A stretch of 54,835 nt of DNA from a virus, in IMG/VR virus record IMGVR_UViG_3300029448_000055, positions 1 to 54,835 of that record. One strand, given 5' to 3'. The position numbers and the translations under genes are program-made. Under the pieces are notes generated by a model. That model was not told the DNA's origin. It made no database searches and worked only from the letters and a program-made list of their open reading frames with translations. Below are positions 40,133 to 53,351 of the stretch, piece after piece (the first letter of the stretch is position 1; every line of letters starts with the position of its first letter).

Positions 40133-40528
40133 CTATTCCTTTAAATTACTACGTGCGACAGATTTAGACTTTTCCCAGCTACGCATACCACCAAGTCCTA
40201 GTAAACTCATAGTTAAAGTTAACAAACCTTCGGTTGCTATTTCTGGTATTGGGATATCAGATCCTGAAACCATTAAGCCCCAATTCAATATAGGTCCTAT
40301 AAAAAAAGACCATAACAATCCTAAACAACACACCCACATAATCGCTGGTCTAGCACCGGCGACAAACATGGACGGGTTTTTAGCTTGTTCTTTATTAACT
40401 TCTATTTGAGCTAGATTTGCATTGTGTAATTGCATATCCAACTCATGCTGTAACTTAGCTTTCAAATCTTTGTCTTCAACAAACTTGTCTAAAACTTTGC
40501 CAGCTACACCTACTACTGAATCTAACAT
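40133..40528 (-). CDS. Holin, GTA-type three-helix family
   Basis: 131 residues. The N-terminal 50 are helical and charged. FVAGARPAIMWVCCLGLLW and PILNWGLMVSG, then EGLLTLTMSLLGLGGMRSWE, give the hydrophobic segments and the W-P-x-x-x-W pattern of the 3TM holins of gene transfer agents. The C-terminus is basic. It should form the lesion that lets the endolysin at 40578 reach the cell wall. Confidence 0.75.
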   Translation of the reverse strand: MLDSVVGVAGKVLDKFVEDKDLKAKLQHELDMQLHNANLAQIEVNKEQAKNPSMFVAGARPAIMWVCCLGLLWSFFIGPILNWGLMVSGSDIPIPEIATEGLLTLTMSLLGLGGMRSWEKSKSVARSNLKE

Positions 40529-40577: not shown

Positions 40578-41048
40578 TCATACTATTCTATATGTACTTC
40601 CGTCAAAAGTCATGGCTATCTTCCTATTATCTTCTGGGTTTGCATAAGAGACATGTACCCAGCCACTATTAGGACTAACGCCATCGTAATATTCTAAAAT
40701 AATCTGATCGTACTCTAAATTTTCTATAATGTAGTTAAACAAACTTTCGTTATCAACAGTTGGTATTTCTATGTCTACTGCTTGCCCTAAACAATGTTGA
40801 CTTTTTGCTGAGCCACCTATGGCTTTGTTTAGTTCTGGGGATCTATAACCACTATTAGGACTAAAAGCAATTTTGTAGTGATCTCTAATTGGTTGTACTA
40901 CATTTTCACAAAGATTAATTAAATTGTTAAGTATTTCTTCATCTTGAATAGAATTATCTATTTCTTTACGTTTAGCAGTTTGACTTTTAACAAACTCACG
41001 GATTGTAAAGTTCTTACTAAGTTTAGTATTTTCGTCCCAATCGTTCAC
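40578..41048 (-). CDS. M15-type peptidase endolysin
   Basis: 156 residues from a GTG at 41048 that overlaps the previous stop as GTGA. A TTG at 41093 would add 15 residues of weak coding. Zinc ligands are His85 and Asp92 in SQHCLGQAVDIE and His132 in WVHVSY, the M15_3 D-Ala-D-Ala carboxypeptidase-like set. GYRSPELNKAIGG is typical. It cleaves peptidoglycan cross-bridges to release progeny. It follows the basic-protein cluster and precedes the holin. Confidence 0.82.
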   Translation of the reverse strand: MNDWDENTKLSKNFTIREFVKSQTAKRKEIDNSIQDEEILNNLINLCENVVQPIRDHYKIAFSPNSGYRSPELNKAIGGSAKSQHCLGQAVDIEIPTVDNESLFNYIIENLEYDQIILEYYDGVSPNSGWVHVSYANPEDNRKIAMTFDGSTYRIV

Positions 41049-41401
41049 GAGTAACTGGTTCTTTTTCTGCGATTTGACATAACTGCGCCACAACCTTTGT
41101 TTAAGCGCGTAACAATACCGCCATCTTTTTTTTTGACAATCGTTTTTACATTGGTTGGTTTACCACCAACGCCTTGAGGCTTGGCTCTTTTTCTAGCTAC
41201 CGCACTTTTTCTTTGAGCTGCTGTCATGCTGTTGGCTTTGGCTCTGGGCACACACTTAGGATATTTTCTTTTTGAACCTTTGACCTTGGCTCGACCACAG
41301 CTTTGAAACTTGCCATCTTTTTTAGGTGCACCGATATCTACCCAATCACCTTTAGGGCCTTTACCAAACCATTCTGTTAAACCGCCCGTAGGTTTTGCCA
41401 T
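41045..41401 (-). CDS. Basic protein, DUF5872-like
   Basis: 118 residues, strongly basic. GLTEWFGKGPKGDWVDIGAP, then FQSCGRAKVKGSKRKYPKCV, then NSMTAAQRKSAVARKRAKPQ, is a conserved marine phage signature that I recall as DUF5872-like and shared with some algal giant viruses. KKKDGGIVTRLNKG carries a GG motif. It may bind DNA in the virion. Confidence 0.6.
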   Translation of the reverse strand: MAKPTGGLTEWFGKGPKGDWVDIGAPKKDGKFQSCGRAKVKGSKRKYPKCVPRAKANSMTAAQRKSAVARKRAKPQGVGGKPTNVKTIVKKKDGGIVTRLNKGCGAVMSNRRKRTSYS

Positions 41402-42153: not shown

Positions 42154-42486
42154 CTATGAAATTGTAACGCTAATAGCTCCTAAGCTAGAAGTCATTTGTG
42201 GACTAAATTTAACTTTGCTATCAGCAACAGTAAGTATAGCAAATGGTTCAGTAATGTCGGCAAAACCAACACCATCAAATACTTGCAATGAATTAGTCGT
42301 GGTATTAAAAATAATAGTACCAGCGTTAAAATTTGATTGATCTCTTTCTGTCGTAGTAAATTGTTCAGTATTAATAGGATCAAACTCGCCTAAGTTTAAT
42401 TCTAATAATCTAACCAAACGATTGAATAAATCCGGCGTTACCAAACCATTAGCAATAGGTAATCTAGTGCCTAATAGTTTTGCCAT
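42154..42486 (-). CDS. Small tail-associated protein
   Basis: 110 residues, beta-rich C-terminus. The start AKLLGTRLPIANGLVTPDLFN is followed by NFNAGTIIFNTTTNSLQVF, a pattern of small virion proteins that occur beside tail nozzles in marine phages. Start and upstream stop share one base with the 711-residue gene. It may be a nozzle or needle component. Confidence 0.55.
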   Translation of the reverse strand: MAKLLGTRLPIANGLVTPDLFNRLVRLLELNLGEFDPINTEQFTTTERDQSNFNAGTIIFNTTTNSLQVFDGVGFADITEPFAILTVADSKVKFSPQMTSSLGAISVTIS

Positions 42487-44621
42487 TATCTTCTGCCGTC
42501 AGCTTGAATATCGTAACGAGTTGCCCCTAAACGCCAACCTACACCTAAATTGCCATTGTTACCATCGTTAGACGCTAAACGTACTACTGCTTGTCTGCCT
42601 CTAGCTCTAATGTGGCCTTGTTTAGTGCTTGGTGTAACAGTTGAAGTTTGCCCAGAACTCAACGTATCGCCTGGGAAGTCTCTAGTTTTAGTAACTATAT
42701 TAACGTTAGAAGCTGCATCATCATCTAAAAATTTCACATCTGGTATAACTTTTTTTAGAAAAGAAAAACTATCGCCGTCGCCTAAATCAAAATCAGATGA
42801 CTCAATAAAAACATTGGTCATTTCAGCACCATCATTATCAAAGCCAAACTCATGCTGGTAAAGATAATTACTACCAACAGCTTGTGGGTATTCTTCAATA
42901 TTAGAATCTAACCAAGCAGTTCTATTCAGTTGTCCGTAATACCAAACTTGTTCTTGATAATTGTAGATTACATATCTGTCTATTTCAGTGGCACTAGCAG
43001 AAGGATAGAACCAACCTACTTCAGAATGTTTATTGTTACTAAAGCCGTGTATTTTAAAACCTTGCTCTTGGTTGATATCACTAAAAACATAGTTTCTAAC
43101 GGTGCAAGGTAATTGTTGCACTGTACCATTGTATAAATAGAAAGAATCGTAACTCATAAAGAAGACACCGCTAGGCGCAGTAATCGCTGCTTTAGGTCCT
43201 ATTAGCCCAGTGTTTTCATTTATTAAATTTAAACCAAAGGTAAATGGTGGCCCAATAAATTGCATACTGTAAATGGCAGTATCAGTAAAAACAATTATCT
43301 CTTGTCTGGCTTTTACTGCACCAATAATCTTAGAACCAGAGGATAGTCTTAGTGACCCAGCTGTATTGGTTGTTAAGGTTCTAAAATCTAATGGGTTTTC
43401 TTGATCACTAAAAGCAATAAGCATGGGATCTATCTCGCCAGATCTCGAGTCGTTAACAATTGGATCTGTGCCAAAAACAATTAAATGTCGATCGGTTTCT
43501 GAAGTTAAAACTTGTAAGCCTACTGTTGGCACTTGATTTGCGCCTGTTTGACTACTTAGCTCAACTGCTCTATTGCCTGTACCATTATTTTCAACCCAAC
43601 GATAAACACCACCACCTCGAACATTTAAAATTAAATCTTCACCGTAGTTGTCATGACTCCAAAGTCTTAAATTATTTAATGAAGTTTCTACTCCAGAAGT
43701 TGCAGCCACACCCCAACCATTAAAGTCATTAGCAGCATCAGCATTGCCTGTAACTAATTGCACAGTGGCACCATCACTATGTGCTGCTGCTGTAGTTCCT
43801 TGCACGCCACGAGTACAACTGCTCAAAGTATTTGTAGAAACTGACCCGATAGTTATTAATTCTTCACCTATTAAAATAGTATCATTAGCTACAAAGCCAG
43901 TAGCACTGGTTAATATTATAGTGGTGTCAGAATTAGAGATACCACCAGAATCATTTAAAGTTGTAGTCAAAGCACCATCTGTATTACCGCCCCAAAGTCC
44001 AGCACCCCAACCTGTAGACCTAACTACAATATCTAAACCAGTATTTATTTGATAAGAACCATCTGTGCCTGAGCCACTATTACCTGTATCACTACTATTA
44101 GCGGTAACCGTACTACCAGAAGTATCTTTAGCGGTAATAGTATAAGTATTACCATCAATAATATTTGTTATCTGATATTCTTGATTTAGGACAGTAGCTG
44201 TAATTAAACCACCTAAAGTAGCTGCTCCAGAAATAGTAACAAAATCATTTACTACTGCTCCGTGCGAAGCATCTGTTACTGTTAAAGTTGATGAGCCATT
44301 GGTGGCAGCAAAAGTTATTGAATTGGTGCTGGTTTTTCTAATCGGTGTAATGTCGTTGTAGGCATTGTTGTTCTCAACTACGTAATATTTTAAATGTGTG
44401 CCTATTCCTAAATATTTAACCCCAACTAAAGATACAAAATTATGCAAGGCCCTAGCTGTGCCTTGATAAGTAGAAGTTAAAAGTTTTTGCCAGCCACCAA
44501 ATTTTTCAGGCAAGCCCATGCGAAAACGAATTAAGTTGCAATCAAACCAACTGCTACCATTATCGTATGAAGTACCTTCACGATTTATTCCAGGTTGAAA
44601 AGTTATTTTTTGTAGAGCCAT
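42486..44621 (-). CDS. Tail nozzle-like protein
   Basis: 711 residues. QKITFQPGINREGTSYDNGS, then RFRMGLPEKFGGWQKLL, is the N-terminus of a conserved podovirus tail protein of the T7 gp12 or P22 gp10 kind. Around residues 95-160 an inserted Ig-like module (SSTLTVTDASHGAVVNDFVT) is visible. LIVFGTDPIVNDS and SMQFIGPPFTFGLN belong to the propeller-like body. The C-terminus is basic. It forms the hexameric end of the tail tube. Confidence 0.7.
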   Translation of the reverse strand: MALQKITFQPGINREGTSYDNGSSWFDCNLIRFRMGLPEKFGGWQKLLTSTYQGTARALHNFVSLVGVKYLGIGTHLKYYVVENNNAYNDITPIRKTSTNSITFAATNGSSTLTVTDASHGAVVNDFVTISGAATLGGLITATVLNQEYQITNIIDGNTYTITAKDTSGSTVTANSSDTGNSGSGTDGSYQINTGLDIVVRSTGWGAGLWGGNTDGALTTTLNDSGGISNSDTTIILTSATGFVANDTILIGEELITIGSVSTNTLSSCTRGVQGTTAAAHSDGATVQLVTGNADAANDFNGWGVAATSGVETSLNNLRLWSHDNYGEDLILNVRGGGVYRWVENNGTGNRAVELSSQTGANQVPTVGLQVLTSETDRHLIVFGTDPIVNDSRSGEIDPMLIAFSDQENPLDFRTLTTNTAGSLRLSSGSKIIGAVKARQEIIVFTDTAIYSMQFIGPPFTFGLNLINENTGLIGPKAAITAPSGVFFMSYDSFYLYNGTVQQLPCTVRNYVFSDINQEQGFKIHGFSNNKHSEVGWFYPSASATEIDRYVIYNYQEQVWYYGQLNRTAWLDSNIEEYPQAVGSNYLYQHEFGFDNDGAEMTNVFIESSDFDLGDGDSFSFLKKVIPDVKFLDDDAASNVNIVTKTRDFPGDTLSSGQTSTVTPSTKQGHIRARGRQAVVRLASNDGNNGNLGVGWRLGATRYDIQADGRR

Positions 44622-44657: not shown

Positions 44658-44867
44658 CTAGAAGAGTGATGTTTTTATCATAAAGCCAGTAATAGTTAGC
44701 ATTAGAGTACCAAAAAAAACTAGCCCAGCTCTAATGCTTTTGTTTATTGATTTTACTTCGGTTTCAATTGTTTCTAATCTACGCCAGTTTTCACGCCATC
44801 TAACTTCGCAAGCTGCCTCATGTGCTGATAATCGTTTATCTATTTCTGCAACAGTTGCTCTAGCCAT
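44658..44867 (-). CDS. Small membrane/coiled-coil protein, spanin or XhlA-like
   Basis: 69 residues. A coiled-coil first half (ATVAEIDKRLSAHEAACEVR, then LETIETEVKSINKSI) leads to a single membrane helix AGLVFFGTLMLTITGFMI. This order resembles XhlA-type lysis accessories. The preceding 36 bases are AT-rich with no terminator. Confidence 0.5.
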   Translation of the reverse strand: MARATVAEIDKRLSAHEAACEVRWRENWRRLETIETEVKSINKSIRAGLVFFGTLMLTITGFMIKTSLF

Positions 44868-44868
44868 T

Positions 44869-44988
44869 TTATTCGTTAAACCAATTTTTTAAATTGTATT
44901 TAATTTGTTCGTATTTACTAGGTGAAAATTTTCTCAGAGCAACCACCCCTAAAATCACTATGCCTAAAATTACTATTAATGTTTCCAT
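44869..44988 (-). CDS. Very small membrane protein
   Basis: 39 residues: METLIVILGIVILGVVAL, then basic and aromatic residues (KYEQIKYNLKNWFNE). AGAGGTAG precedes the ATG. Only 1 base separates its stop from the next start. The shape matches the 52-residue protein at 14866. Confidence 0.5.
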   Translation of the reverse strand: METLIVILGIVILGVVALRKFSPSKYEQIKYNLKNWFNE

Positions 44989-45288: not shown

Positions 45289-47196
45289 TTATAAATTCGG
45301 TTGTGTTGCTTTTATTTTAACAAGATTTTGATAATTTGCATCAAACATTTGTATAAAAGCAGACTCATTATCAAGTATTATGTTATCAGTATAAATGGCT
45401 TTAGCTTTGTACCAATCCATCTTATTAGGTAATTTCGTAGTTCGATAAGCATCAAACCCAGGTACGTAGTTTATGTAGTTAATTATTTTTTCTTCTTCAC
45501 CGTATTCGTTATTAGCAACTCTTTCTTCAACAACTTGGTCAGCTTGATCTTCTAAATTTTGAGCAATAATATTATCAGCAATTGTATCTGCTTCTGATTT
45601 TTCTATTTGTTGAACGTTATCCATACTGTTTTGATCTGTGGTATCTGCATTAATACTAACAACAGTTGTCACAATACTTTCAGATCCTATATCTGTAATA
45701 TTTTGTGTGCCAGTATTTACAGAATCCATATTCATAGTATCAAAGCTCACACTCATATTGGCGTTTGTTTGTCCAGAACCACTACTACCAATTGCATGTA
45801 TATCATTTCCAGCGGTAGTGCCACTAACACTATTAGCTGCAGCACTAACTGTTTGTGCCACTACGTCTAATTGAGTCTGCGTGATACCAGATTTTTCATC
45901 TATTTTACCTATTGCTATAGCTTCTACTTCTATTTCTACTACTTCTTCTATTTCTGGTTCTTCAAGCTCTACTATTATTTCTTCTACTTCTTCTTCGTAC
46001 TGTGGTTCAAAATACTCTTCTATTATTTCTTCTAACTCTTCTATAAAAATTTCTTCTTCGATAAATTCTTCAGAAAAAAATTCTTCTTCTAAACGCATAG
46101 TTAATTCAAAAGGTTGTTCAAAAGGTGTTAAAGCTATAAGTTCAATTGGTAATTCATATAGTTCTGGTAGTGGATCTAACTCAAACACGGTTTCTTGACG
46201 AAAAGAATCTTCTATGAATACAGGTTGAAAATATGATTCCTCTACACGCATAGGTTCAAAAAATACCTCTTCTTCATAAAAGAAAAATTCTGGTTCTTCA
46301 ATAAAAGTACCCATTGCCATAAGCTCTTGTTCATCAATAAAACCATAATCAAATTCTTCTTCTTGCACAAAATAACCAATGTCTTGTTCAAATCTATAGC
46401 CAGCACAAAACGGAGCATATTGCGGATCTATGTCACATTGTTGATCGTCAAAAGCTTCCCAATAGCCAGGGCAACTCATATCATTAAGTGGGTTAGAACA
46501 ATCAATACTGCTACCGTTACCGGAGCCAACCCCATATAAAGAGCCACCATTTTCTAAACCAGAGTTTGCTATAGAGTTATTCCAATCAACAGTTACGCAA
46601 GTGCCTGAGTTAGTGGTACCCGTGCTACATTCATCATAAAATAAATACGTATATTTTTCTGTGCTGTTACCAGCTTCACCAATAAGTACATCATGTGTTT
46701 GTATATCTAAATCACCATATCTGTACTCAAAAGTATTATTAGGCCACAGTATTATTTCAAAACTATTGTCACTACCACTACGATTGTATTCACGCAGTTC
46801 ATACCAACCAAAAATCATTTTGCTTGAGTCTCCCCAAGATTTCATTCTTGCATTGCTATCTCTAATTAAGTCTGTCCAAAAAGGGTACATGGTATAAGTA
46901 TGTTGACCGGTTAATGGATCTGGCGTGTAATCATTACAATAAGCGCCACTAGTTTTAAAATGCAAACAACCATTGGTGGCCATACGCGCTTGACTAAAAG
47001 TTTGATCGTAAAAAGTAAAATTAAAAGATAAGTCTATAGCTGGTGAAACACCATCATCTGCTACTTCATAAGCTAGTTCGCCTTCAAAATTATTGGCGTT
47101 AGTTTGTAGTTGATATAAAGGTTGGTTTGCTTCTGGGATGTAGTTGCTAAAAATAAAACTACTAAATAAAGCCAGACTAACTATACTCTTTTTCAC
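45289..47196 (-). CDS. Exported protein with nidogen-like domain
   Basis: 635 residues from a GTG at 47196. The signal peptide is MKKSIVSLALFSSFIFS (about 1-22). Residues 50-190 carry the nidogen-like pattern: RMATNGCLHFKTSG, MYPFWTDLIRD, then YRYGDLDIQTHDVLIGEAG. From 280 to 440 the chain is Glu/Phe-rich with repeats such as EEEVFFEP and IEELEEIIEEY, probably an acidic stalk. The end is Asn/Ser/Thr-rich, then mixed. It should be secreted or surface-bound from the infected cell, or built into the virion tail. It overlaps the upstream gene by 20 bases. Confidence 0.6.
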   Translation of the reverse strand: MKKSIVSLALFSSFIFSNYIPEANQPLYQLQTNANNFEGELAYEVADDGVSPAIDLSFNFTFYDQTFSQARMATNGCLHFKTSGAYCNDYTPDPLTGQHTYTMYPFWTDLIRDSNARMKSWGDSSKMIFGWYELREYNRSGSDNSFEIILWPNNTFEYRYGDLDIQTHDVLIGEAGNSTEKYTYLFYDECSTGTTNSGTCVTVDWNNSIANSGLENGGSLYGVGSGNGSSIDCSNPLNDMSCPGYWEAFDDQQCDIDPQYAPFCAGYRFEQDIGYFVQEEEFDYGFIDEQELMAMGTFIEEPEFFFYEEEVFFEPMRVEESYFQPVFIEDSFRQETVFELDPLPELYELPIELIALTPFEQPFELTMRLEEEFFSEEFIEEEIFIEELEEIIEEYFEPQYEEEVEEIIVELEEPEIEEVVEIEVEAIAIGKIDEKSGITQTQLDVVAQTVSAAANSVSGTTAGNDIHAIGSSGSGQTNANMSVSFDTMNMDSVNTGTQNITDIGSESIVTTVVSINADTTDQNSMDNVQQIEKSEADTIADNIIAQNLEDQADQVVEERVANNEYGEEEKIINYINYVPGFDAYRTTKLPNKMDWYKAKAIYTDNIILDNESAFIQMFDANYQNLVKIKATQPNL

Positions 47197-48076
47197 AGGT
47201 GCGTCGGCTCTTTCTTACGCCTTTATGATTCTTGCTTCTAGTGCAACTTTGCATAAATTTATCTTTGCGCTCTAAGTAATCTGGTCGATCTAATTTATTA
47301 TCAATCCAAGCAGCTGAAGCATCTTCACCTATTTTGCCCATGTAAGGACAAGGCGTACCAGCCATTTCCATAGCCTTAAATACTCTAGAGTCCTGACAAA
47401 GAATTGCTACCGAAGCTACTTTCATACCCGTATCGTATAAATATTTTGATAGTTTTAAACGCTCACAGTTTTCGTCTCTAACCGCTTTACCGCCAGACAA
47501 ACCAAAGAGCTGGCCTTGAAATGCGCCTGATACTCCAGTCGTACAAAGATCTTGCGAGTAAGACATAATGCTAGGCGCGATAGCAGAAGCTGGTGGCGAG
47601 TTTATATCTTGTTCAATTTTTTGTGTAGAAGTAGAAGTGTTGTTATTAGTATTAGTAGCAGTGTTGTTATTGGTATTTACATTTTGATTGTTAGTGCTAA
47701 CAGAACTAGTGCTATTACTAGTATTATTACTGGTTGAATTATTAGTATTATTATTAGTATTGCTATTTGTTACAGTTTGAGTAGCAGTAGAATTAACATT
47801 ACTAGTGCTAGTACTAACATTAGTATTTGAATTGGTGTTGGTATTTGCATTAGTAGAAACATTGGTATTGGTATTATTATTGGTATTGGTATTGGTATTT
47901 GTGTTGTTATTAGTATTATTGTTGGTATTAGTATTTGTTGTAGTAGTACTGTTAACAGTATTTAAACTATTACCTTCACAGTATTGAGATCCCATAGTGC
48001 AATCGCCAGTTTGTGCTGCTTGCAAATAGCTGGTTATTAAAAAAAGGGCACCAATAAAAATCAAGCGTTTTAACAT
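47177..48076 (-). CDS. Exported protein with Asn/Thr-repeat stalk
   Basis: 299 residues from the ATG at 48076, which overlaps the upstream stop (TGATG). A longer start exists but lacks a reason. Signal peptide LKRLIFIGALFLITSYLQA, then GDCTMGSQYCEG. Residues 40-151 are almost only Asn, Thr and Ser. The C-terminal domain (SQDLCTTGVSGAFQGQLFGL, AILCQDSRVFKAMEMAGTPC, then YMGKIGEDASAAWIDN) is conserved in marine phages, Cys-containing and of unknown function. It is likely the stalk and head of a surface or virion-tip protein. Confidence 0.6.
   Translation of the reverse strand: MLKRLIFIGALFLITSYLQAAQTGDCTMGSQYCEGNSLNTVNSTTTTNTNTNNNTNNNTNTNTNTNNNTNTNVSTNANTNTNSNTNVSTSTSNVNSTATQTVTNSNTNNNTNNSTSNNTSNSTSSVSTNNQNVNTNNNTATNTNNNTSTSTQKIEQDINSPPASAIAPSIMSYSQDLCTTGVSGAFQGQLFGLSGGKAVRDENCERLKLSKYLYDTGMKVASVAILCQDSRVFKAMEMAGTPCPYMGKIGEDASAAWIDNKLDRPDYLERKDKFMQSCTRSKNHKGVRKSRRTCEKEYS
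47624..47957. repeat. Asn/Thr trinucleotide tract
   Basis: About 334 bases of AAT/ACT/ACC-type triplets encode residues 40-151 of the exported protein. Runs such as (AATACC)n could expand or contract by slippage while keeping frame, so allele length may vary between related phages. Confidence 0.65.
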
Positions 48077-49188
48077 CAGGCCGTCCTTTTCCACATATAA
48101 ACAACTATGTATGGGTTCATAATAGAGAAACTAGAGCCACTACCAGTAGAACCTGTGGTTCCACTTACACTGCCACTAAAACCGTGAGTGTGACTAGAAG
48201 TAAATGTTGCAGTATTTCCACTTAAAGCAGCTTCCTCTAAAGTGTTACGACCAGCAGTAAAATTATCAGCAGAGTAGTTAGGAAATTTACCAGTGGTAAT
48301 TGTTGCTGTACCAGCATCTGTAGTACCGCTAAAGCTGGCGCTAAAGCTGTGATCATGCGAAGGTAAATTTGAAGTAGATAAGGTAACTGTTGAATCTCCA
48401 CCTGTACCACTAAAAGATCCACCTGAGCCAACCATAACTCGACCAGCACCAAAAGCTTCCCAAGTTCCAAAACCTAATAAACTAGATGGATTAGTACTGC
48501 TAGTTGCATTTACATAAATTGAACCTACTGGATAAACTCCTGCTAGTGCCGCAGCTAAAGTAGTTTTAGTATCTATCTGAGTTTGTATAGCTGAAGTAAC
48601 GCCATCTAAGTATTGAAATTCGGCGCTACTAACAGAGCCATTAGCAATTTTAGCAGCATCAATTGCTGCCGCAGATTTTATATCAGCATTAACAATGTTA
48701 GTGATTGTGTTGTTATCAGAGTCAATTGATTTGTTTGTTAAAGTTTGCGTGCCAGTTAGATCTACTAAACTTAAATCGTAAACTGCAGCTCCAGAACCAG
48801 CACCATCGGTAGCAACAACTTTTACTGCGCCATTTGGTATTTGTACGTTAGCGCCACTACCTTGAGAAATATTAATTGCTTGACTACCACTAGTGCTATT
48901 TTCAATAATCCAAACTTTAGAAACTGTATTAGGTCCTAATGTTAAAGTTCTAGTAGCACTTAACGTGGCTGAGGAAGTTACTTTTAAATATAATTTTCTA
49001 ATTTCATCAGTAGCACCATCTGCCATAGTTTCAGTGGCATCGGCATCGGAACTAAAACAATCTTTAGTACCACGGGCAAACCCCTCAGCAACTAATTCCA
49101 AATTAGTGTTGGTTGAAGTACCCCAGGTTCCTGATTCGTCACCTGTACTAATTTCTTTTAACCTTAAATCGTTAACGTAAGTTGCCAT
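48076..49188 (-). CDS. Fiber with T4 gp10-like C-terminal collar domain
   Basis: 370 residues. N-terminal TYVNDLRLKEISTGDESGTW is a known phage fiber start. Residues 80-210 are beta-helical-like. The C-terminus has YPVGSIYVNATSSTNPSSLL, GFGTWEAFGAGRVMVG, TSNLPSHDHSFS, FTSSHTHGFSG and MNPYIVVYMWKRTA, the pattern of T4 gp10/short-fiber collar domains with histidine-rich loops. It is a tail fiber or adhesin candidate. Confidence 0.75.
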   Translation of the reverse strand: MATYVNDLRLKEISTGDESGTWGTSTNTNLELVAEGFARGTKDCFSSDADATETMADGATDEIRKLYLKVTSSATLSATRTLTLGPNTVSKVWIIENSTSGSQAINISQGSGANVQIPNGAVKVVATDGAGSGAAVYDLSLVDLTGTQTLTNKSIDSDNNTITNIVNADIKSAAAIDAAKIANGSVSSAEFQYLDGVTSAIQTQIDTKTTLAAALAGVYPVGSIYVNATSSTNPSSLLGFGTWEAFGAGRVMVGSGGSFSGTGGDSTVTLSTSNLPSHDHSFSASFSGTTDAGTATITTGKFPNYSADNFTAGRNTLEEAALSGNTATFTSSHTHGFSGSVSGTTGSTGSGSSFSIMNPYIVVYMWKRTA

Positions 49189-50321: not shown

Positions 50322-51026
50322 TTACTCCTGTATTTCTTTTGGTTGTGCTGGCATATCCCAACAATTTAAGTTAGAGGCTATTGTACGCCTTTCGCCTTCA
50401 CCTTTGAATGGATAAACCATATGTTGTAACCAAGAAGGAAAAACTAATAATTTTCCTACTTCTGGTTTTATAACGAAAGATTGTGGGGGTCTTAATCTTT
50501 CCGTATTCATTAATTCATTACGTCCATATTGAAAAGCGATATAGCCATCGCAATCGCCTGACGCTTGATACAAAGAATAATTTTGTGAACCAGCTGTTGG
50601 TTGATCTAATATTTGTTGCGGTACTTTAGTCCAGCCAGTCGTAGATATACCCATAATAGTTTTAGTGCCGTGATCGTGTATAGGGTTGTAATCGCCAGCA
50701 TAACTATGTACGGACCAAGTTTCATCAACGGCTACTGCTTTTGGATGATTTAATTTAGTGCCAGTGTTTTGGCTGAAAAAATTTATATAATCCGCACCTA
50801 ACGAACAAATAAAATCGGTATATTCTTTAATGCGTTTATCGCCATTGTCTAACAATAATTGTTCGCCTTGGGTTATTTGTCCGACTAAAGTATCAGCTAA
50901 AGATTTTTTATCTTCCGTCTCTTGATATTCGTCTAAATAATCGTTTATATCGTTTACCATACTTAACGGCATTTCTGTTTCCATAACAAAAACAGAAGGC
51001 ATATTATGTACAGTTACTTCTGCCAT
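50322..51026 (-). CDS. 2OG-Fe(II) oxygenase
   Basis: 234 residues. HxD-type metal ligands lie in YNPIHDHGTK (about 115-121), with His202 in WLQHMVYPF and an Arg in GEGERRTIASNLN (about 213) for the 2-oxoglutarate. LLVFPSWLQHMVYPF is typical of the 2OG-FeII_Oxy_5 (TIGR02466-like) phage family. It could hydroxylate a virion protein or host target. It sits within the fiber cluster and is coupled to the 106-residue gene. Confidence 0.75.
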   Translation of the reverse strand: MAEVTVHNMPSVFVMETEMPLSMVNDINDYLDEYQETEDKKSLADTLVGQITQGEQLLLDNGDKRIKEYTDFICSLGADYINFFSQNTGTKLNHPKAVAVDETWSVHSYAGDYNPIHDHGTKTIMGISTTGWTKVPQQILDQPTAGSQNYSLYQASGDCDGYIAFQYGRNELMNTERLRPPQSFVIKPEVGKLLVFPSWLQHMVYPFKGEGERRTIASNLNCWDMPAQPKEIQE

Positions 51027-51356: not shown

Positions 51357-53351
51357 TTAGTTTAATTTATTTTCTAATTCATCAACTTTTGCTGATAATT
51401 CTTGAATTGCTTTAATTGCCATAGGTAACATAGCACTATAAGCAGCTTCTAGTTTTTCAGGATTATCCTCTAAAACTAATTGATGTTGGTCGTTATTACC
51501 AAGTTCTAATAATTCTTGAGCAATAAAACCATTTCTAGTTTTACCTTGATGTGGTGCATTATTTTGCGTTCTTAAATTCCATTTAAATTGTACTGGTCTA
51601 GTACTATTAATAAAATCTAAACCATAAGGTAAATCAATTATATCTGTTTTATCTCTAACATCAGATAAAGATGAAATACTATTAACATTACATCTAAGAG
51701 CAGAAATGTTCCCGTCTCCTAAAGTAAAACTGTTATTTGAATCAACTCCTGCTGTATCTGATGCTCTACCTATACAAGTATTATTACTTCCAGTGGTAGT
51801 TGAGTCTCCTGCTTCACAACCTATAAAAGTATTATTATCACCTGTAGTAACTGCAAGTCCTGCGTCTTTACCTACAGCAGTATTTTTATCACCACTTGTA
51901 GAAGCTGTTAAAGCTTGGTGTCCTACTGCGGTATTATTATCCGACTGTAAATTTGCATCTAAAGCGCTAGTTCCTATCGCTATATTATTGCCACCTTGGG
52001 TATTAGCTATTAAAGCATTTACACCCATAGCAATATTATTAGAGCCTGTAGTAGTTGCTTGTAAAGCATTACCACCAACTCCTATGTTTGCTGTACCAGT
52101 AGTGCTTGACATTAAAACAGCGTCTCCGACAGCTGTGTTATCGGATGAAGTTGTGAGTGTAGATAAACAAAGACGACCAATCGCTACGTTAGAAGAACCA
52201 GTGGTACACGCTTTTAAAGCATCTTTACCTGCTGCGGTGTTGTTACTTGCTGTGGTGTTTGCCAGTAAAGCATTCTGACCAACTGCTGTGTTATTATGTC
52301 CTGTAGTATTAGCATTTAATGACCTTGAACCATAAGCTGTGTTGTAATTACCTGTTGTATTAGCAGATAATGAAACTAATCCAAAAGCAGAATTTTCTGT
52401 ACCTGTTGTATTAGCATCAAGGCTTTCATGTCCAAAAGCACTATTGTAAACACCTGTAGTGTTTGCAGCTAATGAGCTTTTACCAACTGCTGTATTTTCA
52501 GAGCCAGTACTGTTTGCTGCTAAAGCATCTTTACCAACTGCTGTGTTGTTAGATGCTGTAGTGTTAGCACCAAGAGCATCTCGACCAACCGCTGTATTAG
52601 AAGCTCCAGTAGTAGTTACATTTAAAGCTGCAAAACCAACTGCGGTGTTATCATCTGCGGTAGTAGCATTTTCTAAAGCAGCTGTACCAAGTGCTGTGTT
52701 TTGAGACCCTGTTGTGTTAGCTGGTAATGAGTTTTTACCTAATGCAGCATTATTTGTTCCTGTAGTGTTTGCTCCTAAAGAAGCATAACCAACTGCAGTG
52801 TTGTTAGATGCTGTGGTGTTGGCATCAAGAGCTGTAGAACCTATTGCTACATTATTTGCTCCTGTAGTAATTGCTAATAACGCTGAATTTCCAATTGCTG
52901 TGTTATCAGCGCCAGTAACAGCTGTACTACCTGTTGCTCCTAAAGTAGCGTTACCTACTGCTGTGTTATTTGAACCTGTTGTTAAATTTTGAGCAGCATA
53001 AGAACCAACTGCTACAGTGTTAGAACCTGTAGTTAAACCCACTCCAGATGAAAAACCTAACGCTGTGTTATTGTCACCTGTAGTTAAAGCTGCAAAGACA
53101 TCTACACCTACACCTGTATTGTAGTTAGCAGCATCTATAGTACCTGTAGCATTATCACCAATCATTATTGATGAAGTACCAAAAGTCTTGCTGGTTATGC
53201 CGTTATAGCTTGCTGCTGTAGAAGCACCCGTTACAGCTAAATCCCCACCTACCGAAACATCCTCAGAACTATCAATAGTAATAGCAGTAGCATCAGAACT
53301 GTCCGAAATACCTGTATTTAATAAGCCTCTTGAGATTTTTGTTAGTGCCAT
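51357..53351 (-). CDS. Trimeric YadA-like fiber with S74 chaperone
   Basis: 664 residues. The N-terminus NTGISDSSDATAITIDSSED is shared with the fiber at 53702. Residues about 76-540 are some 27 copies of a 17-residue unit of the form NNTAVGxxALxANTTGx, as in YadA-type left-handed beta-roll heads. The end has SDVRDKTDIIDLPYGLDFIN (from 563), then NGFIAQELLEL, a peptidase S74 intramolecular chaperone that trimerises and cuts itself off, and a coiled-coil tail. It is a long fiber or spike. Confidence 0.82.
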   Translation of the reverse strand: MALTKISRGLLNTGISDSSDATAITIDSSEDVSVGGDLAVTGASTAASYNGITSKTFGTSSIMIGDNATGTIDAANYNTGVGVDVFAALTTGDNNTALGFSSGVGLTTGSNTVAVGSYAAQNLTTGSNNTAVGNATLGATGSTAVTGADNTAIGNSALLAITTGANNVAIGSTALDANTTASNNTAVGYASLGANTTGTNNAALGKNSLPANTTGSQNTALGTAALENATTADDNTAVGFAALNVTTTGASNTAVGRDALGANTTASNNTAVGKDALAANSTGSENTAVGKSSLAANTTGVYNSAFGHESLDANTTGTENSAFGLVSLSANTTGNYNTAYGSRSLNANTTGHNNTAVGQNALLANTTASNNTAAGKDALKACTTGSSNVAIGRLCLSTLTTSSDNTAVGDAVLMSSTTGTANIGVGGNALQATTTGSNNIAMGVNALIANTQGGNNIAIGTSALDANLQSDNNTAVGHQALTASTSGDKNTAVGKDAGLAVTTGDNNTFIGCEAGDSTTTGSNNTCIGRASDTAGVDSNNSFTLGDGNISALRCNVNSISSLSDVRDKTDIIDLPYGLDFINSTRPVQFKWNLRTQNNAPHQGKTRNGFIAQELLELGNNDQHQLVLEDNPEKLEAAYSAMLPMAIKAIQELSAKVDELENKLN
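51730..53126. repeat. 51-bp repeat array in fiber gene
   Basis: About 27 tandem copies of a 51-base unit encode the YadA-like roll. Copies are diverged at third positions but close enough for recombination to change copy number. The array also makes false frames on the plus strand. Confidence 0.65.

Follow-up and report, generated by a model that had tools for sequence, protein, structure and literature searches.

By gene layout, the closest described systems to the locus reported here are the two-component spanins of the lambda Rz/Rz1 type, whose inner-membrane member (i-spanin) has one N-terminal transmembrane (TM) segment and a periplasmic, often coiled-coil domain (PMC6139136). Exported proteins of SAR11 phages have also been described in the form of pelagiphage curli (type VIII secretion system, T8SS) modules, which are spread across phage families and carry low-complexity polar repeats (PMC9599517, PMC9004378). 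At the level of single proteins, two further entries are relevant: phrog_20531, which one of the proteins considered here (A) matches and which covers it only, with no link to its partners recorded, and RemA of Flavobacterium johnsoniae, which shares only its N-terminal domain with a second (B), the stalk and tail of B being phage-specific.

Here we describe a fixed set of three genes, A, B and C, common to several unrelated marine phage families and analysed from a 54,835-base virus record (the window, meaning this whole stretch of DNA). Like two-component spanins, the set combines an N-terminal TM segment and putatively periplasmic coiled coil (in C) with exported partners encoded beside it, and lies in the late region, often near lysis genes; unlike them, it has three conserved genes, a large multi-domain B and a C with a conserved NPL end; sequence searches gave no spanin family. 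The coding strands of the window contain no lipoprotein ORF, hence no canonical o-spanin, and because this lipoprotein partner is missing we do not file the module as a spanin. The likeness to curli modules (exported proteins, spread across families, polar repeats) is offset by a different gene set. We think it quite possible, though short of probable, that A, B and C form a late, co-translated, envelope-spanning, spanin-like complex that putatively disrupts the outer membrane in lysis.

Locus layout and genomic neighbours

The cluster runs along the minus strand in the order fiber, A, B, C, a 39-aa ORF and a 69-aa ORF (Table 1). The fiber and A overlap by 1 base, A and B by 20 bases (exactly the overlap of A stop and B start given in the initial annotation of this DNA, which had singled out A and B as a secreted pair), and B and C are separated by 1 base; spacing at all three junctions is as in a co-translated cluster. 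The neighbours are likewise those the annotation had named, with a Gp10_C fiber upstream and small membrane or coiled-coil genes downstream. Since only some loci (5 of 25 of the window type) have a sequence relative of the 69-aa protein in the vicinity of A, we rank this protein as a neighbour and not as part of the core module. A promoter and terminator scan of the window returned nothing above chance, and a search of the phage collection found no close DNA relatives of it. By protein A, the cultured phages closest to the window are Pelagibacter phages, so the host is likely to be a member of SAR11, the dominant ocean bacteria.

Table 1. Coordinates of the A-B-C module and its neighbours in the window (aa, amino acids).
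Feature	Position	Strand	Remarks
Upstream fiber with Gp10_C domain	48076..49188	-	Stop overlaps A start by 1 base; Pfam and PHROG matches
Gene A, 299 aa	47177..48076	-	ORF; phrog_20531 match
A signal peptide	48017-48076	-	
A Asn/Thr/Ser tract	about 47624-47971	-	
A Cys-rich helical head	about 47180-47605	-	Four Cys invariant in a family of 83 sequences
Gene B, 635 aa	45289..47196	-	GTG start inside A, 20-base overlap
B head, residues 18-225	46522..47145	-	Beta domain related to RemA N-terminus
B acidic stalk, residues 270-440	45877..46389	-	52 Glu of 170
B tail, residues 531-635 plus stop	45289..45606	-	Helical; conserved WY..K.IY.....DN motif
Gene C, 98 aa	44991..45287	-	N-terminal TM segment, coiled coil, C-terminal NPL; i-spanin-like
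39-aa single-TM protein	44869..44988	-	Directly 3' of C
69-aa protein	44658..44867	-	Coiled coil and C-terminal TM segment (XhlA-like arrangement)
Candidate endolysin, Peptidase-M15-like	40578..41093	-	About 4 kb downstream of C; candidate by sequence (M15 family test covered relatives only)
Holin, phrog_3427	40133..40528	-	E 4.4e-27

The position of A and B, flanked by fiber genes on one side and a virion structural gene on the other, together with a repetitive stalk and swappable head that resemble tail accessories, raises the alternative that both are virion parts (tail or fiber accessories) in which the N-terminal hydrophobic segment stays uncleaved. We regard this as improbable: the upstream fiber matches a virion PHROG, whereas for A and B there is no hit among tail or head PHROGs; their signal-peptide pattern is conserved, with a lipobox in some; their partner C is a predicted membrane protein; and in the myophage Mosig the trio adjoins primase and a ribonucleotide reductase gene, not structural genes. 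The papers searched yielded no virion proteome of a phage that carries the trio.

Three other minus-strand proteins of the window carry features of their own. A phrog_3287-type structural protein (42486-44621; 711 aa against a 524-position profile) seems to contain an inserted domain of roughly 190 residues, and has matches to other structural or fiber families at residues about 220-310. A large fiber (51357-53351) consists in part of many NTAVG..AL.ANTTG.NN-type repeats and ends in a C-terminal Peptidase_S74 chaperone domain. Among the fiber genes, the protein at 50322-51026 has an HxD...H-like pattern and looks like a putative 2OG-Fe(II) oxygenase.

Architecture of the three proteins

The coordinates of protein A assume a start at the ATG that overlaps the stop of the upstream fiber (the mechanical ORF starts at the GTG at 48094). 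By inspection, signal peptides are present in both A (MLKRLIFIGALFLITSYLQA^AQTG) and B (MKKSIVSLALFSSFIFS^NYIP). A simple hydropathy rule was used to judge signal peptides and TM segments throughout; under this crude n/h/c-region test, leaders were called in 48/54, 40/58 and 49/52 of the A proteins and 35/41, 27/27 and 42/43 of the B proteins of three clades, against 1-8 calls per set in a shuffled control of the first 60 residues. That A and B are exported, as first annotated, is thus supported both by inspection and by conservation in three clades. A lipobox such as LLSGC occurs in 16 of 58 HTVC-type A leaders, and some lineages probably make A as a lipoprotein; in the window, neither A nor B has one.

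The mature part of A comprises a 127-residue tract, of which 48 residues are Asn, 37 Thr and 19 Ser, and a head in which four Cys are invariant across 83 sequences (motif D-NCERLKL...GMKVAAVAILCQD.RVF.AM..AGTPCP). An AlphaFold2 model of a head construct is a helical bundle (residues 50-149; pLDDT mostly 70-90, pTM 0.47). Sequence and profile searches found no convincing relatives of A in the PDB, fold comparison (Foldseek, VIA-align) gave nothing decisive (best Z 2.4), and the structure search otherwise matched uncharacterised viral proteins only. A matches phrog_20531, a family of function unknown, in the window (E 3.4e-15) and in all clades tested. Several other matches were set aside: those of A in Pfam (HCMV_UL116, Presenilin and others) as low-complexity artefacts, and those in GTDB as a clue to the host, the latter lying on contigs from marine MAGs or single cells of unrelated taxa, which are probably phage contigs. 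The GenBank label "OmpA family" on A of roseophage CRP-810 looks unsupported.

In protein B, the signal peptide is followed by a nidogen/RemA-like beta domain, a Cys-rich segment, an acidic stalk and a helical tail. Residue counts and alignment bear out the Asn/Thr tract and Cys-rich head described for A, and the acidic stalk described for B, on first reading. In the predicted structure, the beta domain (residues 18-225) has a pLDDT mostly of 70-90 and the acidic stalk is disordered. A profile of B built from 39 relatives matches, over residues about 11-160, the N-terminal domain of RemA (PDB 8gl6, E 1.7e-11). Pfam NIDO is absent for the window B and appears only sub-threshold in 2 of the 39 relatives (best E 0.0096). 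Because NIDO stays below the curated Pfam cut-off and the RemA N-terminus is matched instead, the term "nidogen-like" of the initial annotation is a fair name for a distant resemblance and does not stand as a family assignment. MRE11 and Septin also gave low-E matches to the B profile; these lie within the acidic stalk, and we rejected them as composition artefacts. The structure search with B gave no PDB match below 0.001 (best Z 5.2, against sugar-active enzymes, nothing decisive), and tblastn of the window B against cultured phages gave no match.

Protein C (98 aa) has an N-terminal TM segment, a heptad-rich region and an NPL end, the last of these present across all three clades. In each clade C combines one N-terminal TM segment with coiled-coil-type matches, which is the layout of an i-spanin; its sequence pattern suggests an anchor in the inner membrane, with the coiled coil and NPL end on the periplasmic side. 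No spanin family was matched by C in Pfam, PHROGs or NCBIfam, spanins being highly diverse and often unannotated (PMC6139136). Profile comparison (controls near zero) makes C of the window and HTVC types homologous (probability 97%), and is borderline for window against roseophage C (23%, E 0.0009 for the single comparison). The GenBank label "lysozyme" on roseophage C looks unsupported, C of CRP-207 having no such Pfam match; the entries with doubtful labels in roseophages CRP-810 and CRP-207 are L007:4833-5588, L007:6219-6641 and L008:3292-3873. HTVC-type C (L006:9044-9367 and others) carries a His-rich insert in the coiled coil, e.g. HNHDFDHTHD, a possible metal site which window-type C does not have.

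Conservation and exchange of the module in marine phages

Three query proteins were used to gather relatives of A from IMG/VR (461, 547 and 92 confirmed, 80 kept per query); loci were chosen by similarity to these queries, so the counts describe those clades, and testable loci are non-redundant with at least 3.5 kb downstream of A. The A-B-C order is kept in 94 of 102 testable loci across the three clades. A B-like gene follows A in 36/36, 22/22 and 43/44 loci, and both B and an NPL-ending C follow in 34/36, 22/22 and 38/44; several of the eight exceptions retain the NPL gene and miss only the automatic B call. Conversely, a search based on B found A upstream wherever the contig was long enough. 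The co-occurrence of A and B, for which the initial annotation had suggested a search, is therefore found in these loci, and the two do belong together as first annotated; the unit, however, is a trio that includes C, the first of the genes then called spanin-like. The module is present in the Pelagibacter podophages HTVC023P, HTVC115P, HTVC202P, HTVC033P and Baldr, in the myophage Mosig, in the Autographiviridae phage S28-C10 and in roseophages CRP-207 and CRP-810. (The late region of HTVC115P also holds a gene, L002:14294-14743, annotated as toxin-activating lysine-acyltransferase.)

A is homologous across all three clades (profile comparison, probability 99-100%). B keeps its predicted layout across clades and not its sequence: hhalign gave a probability under 3% between clades, a short WY/FY..K.IY..DN-like motif being all that could be aligned, and in other clades B has a differently built head labelled "carbohydrate binding". 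Searches of Pfam, PHROGs and NCBIfam and of the open-access literature found no described function for the A/B pair, in agreement with the initial annotation, and name the module nowhere, although a description outside open access is possible. The module stays together in different phage families and includes an A that is strongly conserved and of unknown function, which makes it a concrete test target.

Values of dN/dS for A and B range by region from 0.03 to 0.41, and this purifying selection identifies both as real genes; the A head (0.03-0.12), B head (0.06-0.23) and C (0.07-0.22) are all constrained. Individual comparisons reveal mosaicism within B: relative to locus L013, identity is 96% for the A head, B head and C and 61% for the B tail, while relative to locus L028 it reaches 95-96% for the B tail and C and 60% for the B head. 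Across 35 non-redundant loci, pairwise identities of the B stalk and B tail correlate with those of C (rho 0.69 and 0.61), whereas the B head does not track C (rho 0.17) and the A and B heads correlate weakly with one another (rho 0.23) despite their overlapping genes. These values are suggestive of a core made of the B stalk, B tail and C, with a B head exchanged independently; since shared descent of the genome backbone can raise rho and may contribute, the tracking is no proof of contact.

A freely exchanged head is also what would be expected of a ligand-binding domain, and the initial annotation had proposed that A and B coat the infected cell, block adsorption of rival phages or mediate aggregation. 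On such a reading A would be fibre-like or amyloid-like, B would bind a ligand and C would act as the anchor of an adhesin or coat on the cell surface. The similarity between the B head and the adhesin RemA in its N-terminal domain, the differently built "carbohydrate binding" heads of other clades, the Asn/Thr tract of A and the lipobox of some HTVC-type A leaders all speak for this, as do published pelagiphages with curli secretion genes, for which sibling capture and superinfection exclusion have been hypothesised (PMC9599517). Set against them, Sec signals by themselves lead to the periplasm, and the strictly linked partner C is a predicted inner-membrane protein, pointing inward. The CsgG pore is absent from the window and from ten relatives, on which ground we rejected an identity with curli/type VIII secretion, and A of the three clades has no Curlin_rpt match in Pfam at E 0.1-1, a search that short repeats can escape. 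The proposed coating, blocking and aggregation thus found no direct support, and we judge a surface role to be possible but unlikely.

Lysis genes and a putative envelope-spanning complex

The favoured reading, a spanin-like complex, draws in addition on the surroundings of the module. Peptidase M15 lies directly after C in HTVC023P; MW202481 groups A and B with a holin match and a lysozyme; and in HTVC033P a lysozyme lies upstream of the module and an amidase downstream. In the T7-like S28-C10, the trio has a two-TM gene on one side and the terminase genes on the other, and the equivalent stretch in five relatives of this phage holds lysozyme, two-TM and TM-coiled-coil genes. A seed search placed an endolysin within 8 kb downstream in 8 of 25 window-type and 10 of 16 HTVC-type loci, but near the trio in none of 22 roseophage-type loci, where terL was found instead in 17; in HTVC202P the M15 gene is far from the module. 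As proximity to an endolysin differs by clade in this way, we consider the link between module and lysis to be moderate.

The weak proximity in one clade, the spread of the trio over very different phages and its variable genome position would also fit a module that remodels the envelope or alters host physiology in a manner unrelated to lysis, e.g. by stabilising the periplasm or changing uptake. In most records, however, the trio lies in the late region beside fibers, lysis or packaging genes, and we consider a role outside lysis to be unlikely.

We favour a spanin-like complex because the gene order is fixed, C has the i-spanin layout and the B tail and stalk track C, and because some A proteins have a lipobox and lysis genes lie nearby. 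From gene order, the export signals of A and B, the anchor and coiled coil of C, conservation and covariation, we infer the localisation, contacts, timing and activity of the three proteins. In outline, Sec would export A and B into the periplasm; C would be anchored in the inner membrane, its coiled coil and NPL end projecting into the periplasm, and would offer a docking site for the B tail and stalk; and A and the B head would make up the outer-membrane side, A perhaps being lipidated in some lineages. Disruption of the outer membrane by this envelope-spanning complex would follow once the murein had been cut by the endolysin, as with spanins. Known o-spanins are far smaller than B, which counts against a spanin identity. 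It is also conceivable, if rather doubtful, that the module is an undescribed three-component envelope-spanning system of phages infecting abundant marine alphaproteobacteria, in which A, with its conserved disulfide head, B, as a stalked periplasmic protein that is exchangeable and binds a ligand, and C, as the coiled-coil anchor in the inner membrane, would open the outer membrane by a route other than that of known spanins. Should the trio prove to be a lysis device that operates without a classical lipoprotein spanin, it may partly explain those Gram-negative phages (91 of 677) in which no spanin has been found (PMC6139136).

In HTVC115P and several HTVC-type loci the trio occurs alongside other TM-coiled-coil genes, and is therefore no simple replacement for them. 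Separately, we observe that another TM-coiled-coil protein, 119-121 aa long, recurs in pelagiphages together with a 70-aa protein encoded after it (L002:8558-12230, L292:7141-7715 and L295:5974-6548), occupying a terminase-side slot in T7-like pelagiphages and elsewhere lying next to or inside A-B-C; these two genes are an unannotated candidate spanin-like pair.
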